From positions 1 through 42,722 of the forward strand of contig JAUWXF010000016.1 of the NCBI GenBank assembly GCA_030616475.1: a stretch of 42,722 bases of DNA, read 5' to 3'. Source of the stretch: Desulfobacterales bacterium (lineage in GTDB: Bacteria > Desulfobacterota > Desulfobacteria > Desulfobacterales > C00003060). Below the pieces are notes generated by a model that saw nothing but the letters and a program-made list of their open reading frames with translations, had not been told where the DNA came from and searched no databases. Of the stretch, positions 6,253 through 15,304 are shown one piece after another (positions within the stretch are counted from its first letter, which is position 1; each line of letters starts with the position of its first letter). The position numbers and the translations under genes were made by a program.

Positions 6253-6822
6253 CTAGTGCCCCGTCTCAAAAATTCCGTATTCCAAATTGGCAAAATGAAA
6301 TGTTGTCAACTTGGTTACATTTAATCCACTTATCAGAGACGGGGAAATCCGTACTGTTTTCAAGGCGTGAGCCGCAAATTCGAATACCCGCCTGCCAACG
6401 CCTGAGACAGCATTCAGCTTATGTGCCGACACCCGCCTGCCAGCGCCACATACAGCGGGCAGGCGGGTGCTGGCATCTCTGGCAATGGCGGGCAGGTCTC
6501 TGGCAATGGCGGGCAGGTCGAAACTCGAAACAAATTCCAATGACCAAAATCTTAAAATTCCAAAACACTAATGACTTCAGTCTCTTAATATCGGATGCAG
6601 GGCTTCGGTATCGTCCGGTTTGGGTTGATGTTTTGGACATTTGAGCATTCGGATTGAGCGCAGGCTTCACTTCGTGTCGGTTTTGTTTCGGATTTGCGGC
6701 TCACGCCTTGAAAACAGTACGGATTTCGATATTCGGATTTTCAGAACAGATATTGCGTTTCGTCAACATGTTAAATTGCCAAAATCGAACTTAGAACTTA
6801 TGAGACACAGTACCAGGCGAGC
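6253..6822. repeat. Composite repeat block bounded by inverted ends
   Basis: The outer ends are related in inverted orientation: TAGTGCCCCGTCTCAAAAAT at 6253 and, on the other strand, GTACTGTGTCTCATAAGTTC running inward from about 6820. Both continue into a TTGGCAA-containing word. Inside are GAAATCCGTACTGTTTTCAA (6346) with its inverse (about 6715-6740), then a GC-rich core (6376-6523) with two GGCAATGGCGGGCAGGT copies at 6481-6497 and 6502-6518. The core is nearly identical to 13418-13566. A third outer end lies at 42487. It looks like nested palindromic elements and carries no gene. Confidence 0.7.
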
Positions 6823-13414: not shown

Positions 13415-13770
13415 CCGAAATTCGAATACCCGCCTGCCAACGCCTGAGACAGCATTCAGCTTATGTGCCGGCACCCGCCTGCCAGCGCCACATACAGCGG
13501 GCAGGTCAAATGCTAGCATCTCTGGCAATGGCGGGCAGGTCTCTGGCAATGGCGGGCAGGTCGAAATCCCTGGCCCAGACCTGGACTACATGGGCACCAA
13601 AATCATCTGGGCATGTCGCGCCAGGGCAGGCCGAAACAATATCAAATGACAAAAATGCAAAATTCAAAACAATACTAAGTTCAAGATTATTGGTGGCAAC
13701 AGCCTATGTTTTGAGCATTTGAGCATTTGAATTTCGAATTTGTTTCGAATTTCGTGCTTCGTGCTTCGAA
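13415..13770. repeat. Composite repeat block upstream of the cytochrome gene
   Basis: 13418-13566 is a near copy of 6376-6523, including two GGCAATGGCGGGCAGGT (13524-13540, 13545-13561). It is followed by CCTGGCCCAGACCTGG (13569), CGCGCCAGGGCAGGCC (13617) and an AT-rich arm that ends in TTTGAATTTCGAATTTG and TTTCGAATTTCGTGCTTCG. No gene is seen between 13322 and 13894. Confidence 0.75.
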
Positions 13771-13894: not shown

Positions 13895-15304
13895 ATGAAG
13901 AGGTTATTGAAGAAGAAAGGCCGAAGAGTCGGCCTAATAGCGGTCTTTGCTATTGCGGCCTTCCTTGGTCCCGCCCGCGGGTATGCCAAAGCCGAAGCTG
14001 CCGAAGGCAAGAGTGAATGTATCGCCTGTCATACTGACGTAAAAAATCTAGTTAGCCTGATCTCGGAGATCGAAAAGATCAGGCCAGAGCTAGGCAAATC
14101 CGCGCAGGCCCCTGGCGAAGGTTGAGCGGGGCCTCCGTCTCCGTTGGAGCCGTATGAAAAGATTTATGTCAAGCCTTCCTTCCTGAAGACCGGCCACGGG
14201 CAAATAGCATGCGAGACCTGTCACAACGGCGACCCCAAAGACCCTAACTGGAAGACTGCCCATAGGGGAATCGTGAGAGACCCTACCTTCCCTGACGCCG
14301 ACAAGGTCTGCGGGGAATGCCACGAAAATATCGCGTTCACAGCCAGGAACAGCCTGCACTACACCTTAGCCCCCTTTGACAGGGTTATTAAGGCCCGGGC
14401 CAACAAAAAGGCCAAAGGAGTTCTTGAAAAGGTCTGCCAGGCAAAAGAAAAGCATTGCACCGCCTGTCATGCAAGCTGCGGCCAGTGCCATGTCAGCCGT
14501 CCGGATTACGTACAAGGCGGCTTTCTGGCCGGACATCTTTTTGAGAAAACACCATGTATGCACACGACCTGCGGGAGCTGCCACAACGGCCGGGTCTATA
14601 GTGAGTTTACCGGTGCAAATGACGGCTATCCCGCAGATGTTCATTACAACAAAGAGGAAATGACTTGCATGAACTGCCACACGGGAAAAGAGATACATTC
14701 TGATGCTACAGGCGTGGCTACCCGATTTAGTCTTCCTGAACGGCCGAGGTGCGAGAGGTGCCACCCGGATGTAGTATCTAAAAAGCCCAAGACCAACTCA
14801 CATACGATTCACAGGGACAAGGTCGCCTGTCAGGTTTGCCATGCGGTGGCCAACAAAAACTGCTTTAATTGCCACGTTGGGACCGATAAGGACGGCCTTG
14901 CTTGTTCCAAGTCCGGCGAAACGAGAATGGTATTTAAAATAGGCCTCAATCCCAACAAGACAAAGGACAGGCCGTATAACTATGTGGTTTTGCGTCACCC
15001 ACCGGCCGATCCGGGGCTGTTTGATTTTTACGTAAAGGACGGGCTGAGTGATTTTGACAAACTTCCCACCTGGAAGTTGGATACACCTCACAACATTCAA
15101 CGAATAACCCCGCAGAACAAGACCTGCAACAACTGTCACGGCAATGCCTCACTTTTCCTCCAGAAAAAGGACGTGACCGATTGGGAGCAGAAGGCGAACG
15201 CCGGGGTAGTCGTCCCCAAGGCTAAGATCCCCAAGCCCATCATTCCCAAACCCGCCATCAGACCTGACGATCCGTTAAAATCCCCCCCATCCCCCCTTTA
15301 CTAA
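13895..15304 (+). CDS. Periplasmic 11-haem c-type cytochrome with an in-frame TGA at codon 77
   Basis: A Sec signal peptide (MKRLLKKKGRRVGLIAVFAI, then AAFLGPARGYA) is followed by 11 CxxCH sites: CIACH (42-46), CETCH, CGECH, CTACH, CGQCH, CGSCH, CMNCH, CERCH, CQVCH, CFNCH and CNNCH. Such proteins carry electrons in the periplasm or to the outer surface. The frame has one TGA (14123-14125) after GEG. The same frame continues at once as AGPPSPLEPYEK, with ten of the haem sites after it. No frameshift is needed, and no ribosome binding site or ATG restarts translation. So TGA is either read as selenocysteine or is a nonsense mutation. A weak hairpin (14136-14152) with a GTT loop lies 18-20 nt after the TGA, where bacterial SECIS loops sit. 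The last residues (KSPPSPLY) come from a dispersed C-rich repeat. Confidence 0.8.

Follow-up and report, generated by a model that had tools for sequence, protein, structure and literature searches.

An eleven-haem cytochrome family of Desulfobacterota with a conserved in-frame TGA that very likely encodes selenocysteine

The window analysed here is a 42,722-nucleotide stretch of a Desulfobacterales contig. It carries a gene for an eleven-haem c-type cytochrome in a single reading frame, from the ATG at 13895 to the TAA at 15302-15304. The frame is interrupted once, by a sole in-frame TGA at 14123-14125, without any frameshift. One CxxCH motif precedes the TGA and ten follow it, and all 11 are invariant among homologues. 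A sequence-only reading of the window had described one frame with a signal peptide, 11 CxxCH sites and a TGA after the first of them, as well as a hairpin with a CTCC-GTT-GGAG core and one mismatch at 14136-14152, its loop starting 18 nt after the TGA; all of these features held. Their coordinates are collected in Table 1.

Table 1. Features of the eleven-haem cytochrome gene in the window
Feature	Position	Strand	Basis or remark
Eleven-haem c-type cytochrome gene, very likely a selenoprotein gene	13895..15304	+	469 residues, TGA counted as Sec
Probable signal peptide MKRLLKKKGRRVGLIAVFAIAAFLGPARGYAKA	13895..13993	+	From translation: basic start, hydrophobic stretch, A-K-A end; no predictor used
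CxxCH haem site 1, upstream of TGA	14018..14032	+	Invariant
In-frame TGA, very likely Sec, residue 77, motif GEG-U-AG	14123..14125	+	Homologue alignment, TGA in 93/99
Bacterial SECIS hairpin	14136..14152	+	Covariation across 44 homologues; weak in the window's own sequence
CxxCH haem site 2	14210..14224	+	Translation; conserved in homologues
CxxCH haem site 3	14309..14323	+	Translation; conserved in homologues
CxxCH haem site 4	14456..14470	+	Translation; conserved in homologues
CxxCH haem site 5	14477..14491	+	Translation; conserved in homologues
CxxCH haem site 6	14570..14584	+	Translation; conserved in homologues
CxxCH haem site 7	14666..14680	+	Translation; conserved in homologues
CxxCH haem site 8	14750..14764	+	Translation; conserved in homologues
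CxxCH haem site 9	14828..14842	+	Translation; conserved in homologues
CxxCH haem site 10	14861..14875	+	Translation; conserved in homologues
CxxCH haem site 11	15125..15139	+	Translation; conserved in homologues

We followed the codon for residue 77 across homologues collected by searches of near relatives, named genomes, the order and the phylum. After removal of near-copies, 99 distinct homologues remained, all from Desulfobacterota save one metagenome-assembled genome (MAG) labelled Chloroflexota. The codon was TGA in 93 of them, Cys in five and Tyr in one, and TGA was the only stop type found at this position. The same TGA is kept phylum-wide, at identities down to about 35-40%. The five Cys homologues (L067-L071) form a single clade with full support in the tree, and the Tyr occurs in a cytochrome-rhodanese fusion (L128, genome G619). 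Because the same TGA recurs in 93 of 99 relatives and is replaced by Cys in five, we read it as selenocysteine (Sec). Outside the haem motifs, residue 77 alone is an invariant Sec/Cys position. It lies in a motif conserved on both sides, G-x-G-[U/C]-G/A-G, and in-frame conservation continues straight past the TGA (GG-x-APLEP-x-EK). Pairwise dN/dS was 0.07-0.34 from the first haem site to the TGA and mostly 0.08-0.28 beyond it, with one high value of 0.47 that arose from few changes; the stretches before and after the TGA are thus both under purifying selection (dN/dS <0.5). Decoding of the TGA as Sec in this family is very likely, and only slightly less so for the window's own copy; both claims rest on sequence, without protein-level evidence.

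Two observations concern the distribution of the family. The copy labelled Chloroflexota (L044, on a contig of an Anaerolinea thermophila MAG) has Sec and adjoins a multi-rhodanese lipoprotein, and may reflect transfer or mis-binning. Five genomes (G007, G037, G141, G238 and G253) hold two copies each, one from each of two separate branches.

The hairpin downstream of the TGA was analysed both in the window and across relatives. In the window, C14136 pairs with G14152 and G14137 with C14151, followed by a U14138/C14150 mismatch and an upper stem of 4 bp (CUCC at 14139-14142 with GGAG at 14146-14149) that closes a GUU loop (14143-14145). Close relatives have G where the window has U14138, which breaks one pair of the SECIS stem. 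The bSECIS model requires a loop start 16-37 nt from the UGA and a minimum free energy of -7.5 kcal/mol or lower (PMC13188914). The loop start at 18 nt (17 nt between UGA and loop) falls inside this range; the local stem reached -5.3 kcal/mol, against the figure of -7.5. The 40-nt window fold had -9.4 kcal/mol, took a shape other than the hairpin and was not better than shuffles (z = 0.17). In three relatives (L034, L035 and L092), folds holding the hairpin ranged from -11 to -13.7 kcal/mol, the sister L034 giving -13.7 over 40 nt. On its own, the window hairpin is no better than chance and is uninformative; the evidence from comparison of relatives exceeds chance by a wide margin.

That evidence comes from the 44 Sec homologues that could be aligned without gaps. 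Around the GUU loop, they share a 7-bp stem in which 94.2% of cells are paired. Two of its pairs alternate, between C-G and A-U and between U-A and G-C, without a broken cell, giving 35 compensatory cells. Covariation as high was seen in 0 of 500 shuffles, stems slid along the alignment dropped to 29-47% paired, and folding of the alignment agreed with the covariation stem. The residues after Sec alternate between APLEP, EPLAP and APLAP; through these amino-acid flips their codons remain complementary, which preserves the pairing of the RNA stem. A second large clade has another stem, UCCGCC/GGCGGA, at the same distance from the TGA. It was kept in 93.9% of cells among 22 sequences of that clade, with almost no covariation above shuffles, and the covariation claim therefore rests on the 44-sequence set. 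The hairpin was absent from the two Cys homologues that were folded.

The genome from which the window comes encodes SelA (626.8 bits), SelB (388.8 bits) and a tRNA-Sec with anticodon tca. It also encodes two formate dehydrogenases (FdhA) with an in-frame TGA at the RIUHS site, and together these genes argue that Sec decoding is in use there. SelD was not found in the window assembly, which is 92% complete; it is present in 12 of 15 relatives, including all 11 near-complete ones, and in the sister G020. SelB was found in 49 of 51 carrier genomes and in all 34 of the good ones. The sequence-only reading had left a choice between selenocysteine and a recent pseudogene, and held that selenocysteine would be refuted by unrelated residues at position 77 in homologues or by a genome without sel genes. 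Neither condition held: apart from the one Tyr, the position holds Sec or Cys, and SelA, SelB and tRNA-Sec were found. TGA conservation, the Cys clade, the covarying hairpin and the SelA, SelB and tRNA-Sec genes strongly support selenocysteine, and the pseudogene is rejected.

A second, divergent SelB with a second tRNA-SeC adjoining was seen at L180 (G229:C40:940000-947000) and on G044:C31, G037:C62, G253:C5 and G259:C85. L180 shows two tRNA-SeC copies, and the second SelB set of G229 lies about 6 kb from the Sec-cytochrome gene. Some genomes thus hold two Sec-insertion sets.

We then considered the gene neighbourhood. The scan covered 105 sites, of which 3 duplicates and 5 truncated loci were set aside, leaving 97 informative distinct loci. 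At about 85 of these, a gene for a rhodanese, a sulfur-transfer enzyme, follows immediately on the same strand or forms a C-terminal fusion with the cytochrome (fusions at L128, L072-L075 and L086), and at four further loci it lies upstream. The rhodanese identity was confirmed by Pfam in two cases. So steady a neighbour or fusion partner makes sulfur or selenium chemistry likely. The window clade (the window, L034, L035 and L106) has no rhodanese adjoining the Sec-cytochrome gene; its neighbours encode a radical SAM/SPASM protein, a VIT1-like protein and an alpha/beta hydrolase. A search of the window genome with a single protein, run without a positive control, did not find a counterpart of the rhodanese that accompanies the cytochrome gene in near relatives. 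The missing rhodanese neighbour and U14138 possibly hint at relaxed constraint in the window lineage.

One lineage (L092, L093, L095 and L097) has the order LysR of selenium metabolism, Sec-cytochrome, rhodanese and YedE-type selenium transporter, then YedF and SelD, although contig ends keep some of these genes out of view at individual loci. A selenium-metabolism neighbourhood was rejected as a general trait of the family, being confined to this lineage. At L148, L155 and L157, the Sec-cytochrome gene is followed by a double rhodanese and then by another large multihaem cytochrome; a second rhodanese and a multihaem/membrane cytochrome complete these larger clusters.

The AlphaFold model of the protein had a mean pLDDT of 86.9, falling to about 56 in the Sec loop. 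This low value is compatible with a mobile loop or with missing cofactors, a possibility that rests on the prediction. Nine free histidines are invariant or nearly so; with eleven haems to serve, two haems may lack His as a second ligand. It is possible that the selenolate even serves as a haem ligand or sits at an open haem, but the model offers no haem geometry. Foldseek returned no significant structural match. The best VIA-align Z scores were 4.2, to HAO, and 2.8, to the octahaem sulfite reductase MccA, and we draw no claim of fold from them.

Selenocysteine in multihaem cytochromes already has precedents. A Sec outside the CxxCH sites had been called unusual for a haem protein, a fair remark, yet ExtKL and others are known. 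ExtKL (NCBIfam NF040886; GSU2937-2936), from the Geobacter extHIJKLMNOPQS cluster, is likewise a multihaem c-type cytochrome of Desulfobacterota with an in-frame TGA, and is likewise associated with a rhodanese, ExtH of its conserved cluster. That cluster has been linked to selenite and tellurite reduction (PMC5877670). However, ExtKL has five haems, all N-terminal, and a C-terminal part unlike known proteins, whereas the window protein has 11 haems, and its Sec falls after the first and before the second of them. The 2007 study did not find a SECIS for ExtKL (PMC1914089), in contrast to the hairpin of the eleven-haem family. The window protein gave no match to NF040886 (cut-off 250 bits), so membership was rejected, and in G557 the NF040886 gene and the eleven-haem Sec-cytochrome gene occur at separate places.

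A second precedent, an octahaem tetrathionate reductase family cytochrome with Sec (TIGR04315), is annotated in GenBank and listed in PMC13188914. It resembles our family in being a multihaem cytochrome with Sec. Membership was again rejected: the window protein had no match at E 1 or better (cut-off 375 bits), and only the very remote homologue L160 gave a weak one, of 32 bits against that cut-off. MccSep, a third, is a solved multihaem cytochrome c whose PDB depositions name it a selenoprotein and include a U325A mutant (9wt8, 9wt9, 9wta-9wtc). Its Sec is residue 325, unlike residue 77 of the window protein, and full-length homology was not seen: the match gave only 18.9 bits over a haem stretch, with no relation shown beyond generic haem motifs. 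Weak profile similarity over the haem repeats links the window protein to decahaem cytochromes of the GSU2203 and DmsE types (NF041028 and TIGR03508), but the scores, 39 and 32 bits, stay below the respective cut-offs (325 and 192), and those types are not listed as selenoproteins. No NCBIfam model was reached by the window protein or by remote relatives.

Of the 119 prokaryotic selenoprotein families listed in a 2026 review (PMC13188914), none matched the eleven-haem cytochrome, and the multihaem cytochromes in the review's relevant passages are ExtKL and the octahaem type. The main text of the deep-Sep study mentions no cytochrome (PMC12013277), and we found no Sec-containing 11-haem cytochrome in the open-access literature searched, subscription journals being outside its scope. 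Within that limit, the eleven-haem Sec-cytochrome is an apparently undescribed selenoprotein family. With standard annotation, these genes would end at the TGA, and a cytochrome conserved throughout a phylum of anaerobic sulfur and metal bacteria would be mis-called. The Sec/Cys exchange together with SECIS covariation is strong sequence evidence for Sec in an electron-transfer cytochrome, and the constant rhodanese partner allows a concrete test of selenium use in periplasmic sulfur or selenium redox chemistry.

In our reading, which the sequence strongly supports, UGA codon 77 of an exported eleven-haem cytochrome is read as Sec by SelB and tRNA-Sec, with the SECIS hairpin just downstream. 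Members of the family normally partner a periplasmic rhodanese, adjacent or fused, as the gene context of most relatives shows, though not that of the window clade. In the mechanism that we infer as most likely, the selenolate, carried by a mobile Gly-rich loop that links haems 1 and 2, would attack sulfane sulfur, or oxidised sulfur or selenium. The rhodanese persulfide would deliver or exchange this substrate, and the attack would form a Se-S bond. The haem chain would give or take the electrons that resolve this bond; we leave the reducing or oxidising direction open. The cytochrome and rhodanese may then constitute a periplasmic redox module for sulfane sulfur or selenium. We lean, by a narrow margin, towards sulfur or selenium redox work together with the rhodanese, a biochemical role that is inferred. 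The exact reaction and direction are likewise inferred, and we hold them more in doubt than in favour. A bolder reading is an uncatalogued, phylum-wide family of periplasmic haem selenoenzymes, with Sec on a mobile loop wired to an eleven-haem chain and exchanging sulfur or selenium with a partner rhodanese; this remains tentative, and the balance of evidence does not yet favour it.

The rival that survives best shares the Sec reading and differs only in function. On this possible but less favoured view, the protein would chiefly acquire selenium or reduce selenite to supply YedE, YedF and SelD, and not serve sulfur metabolism. In its favour, LysR-Sec, YedE, YedF and SelD adjoin the gene in one lineage, and Geobacter ExtKL and the rhodanese ExtH belong to a cluster that also encodes the porin ExtI, which influences how selenite and tellurite are reduced (PMC5877670), a parallel that makes a selenium species a serious alternative substrate. 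Against it, the selenium genes are adjacent in that lineage only, elsewhere the rhodanese alone is constant, and the co-location may merely serve selenium supply.

The remaining rivals dispute the Sec reading, and all are nearly ruled out. UGA might be decoded as another amino acid, by stop readthrough or a suppressor tRNA, since conservation of the TGA alone does not identify the residue. However, relatives have Cys at the site, a SECIS-like hairpin covaries at the right distance and the genome holds Sec machinery. A conserved two-gene arrangement, in which the TGA ends a short mono-haem protein and a ten-haem protein starts independently downstream, was raised for the similar case GSU2937-2936 by the authors of PMC1914089, and an in-frame TTG lies at 14144. 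This arrangement is opposed by the in-frame conservation straight after the TGA, by the lack of a ribosome-binding site before any restart, by a second protein that would have no signal peptide, and by the five continuous homologues with Cys. The last rival, a recent nonsense mutation truncating an ordinary 11-haem cytochrome, could draw on the stop after a single haem site, the rhodanese-free window clade and the weakened window hairpin, but it is refuted at the family level by the same TGA in 93 of 99 homologues with no other stop at that codon, by dN/dS far under 1 on either side and by Cys in place of the TGA in one clade.

Elsewhere in the window, GC-rich interspersed repeats (tggcaatggcgggcaggt...) that resemble one another lie between genes at about 2629-2700, 6400-6540 and 13430-13570. 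They show up as recurring WQWRAG / SLAMAGRS stretches in spurious ORFs.
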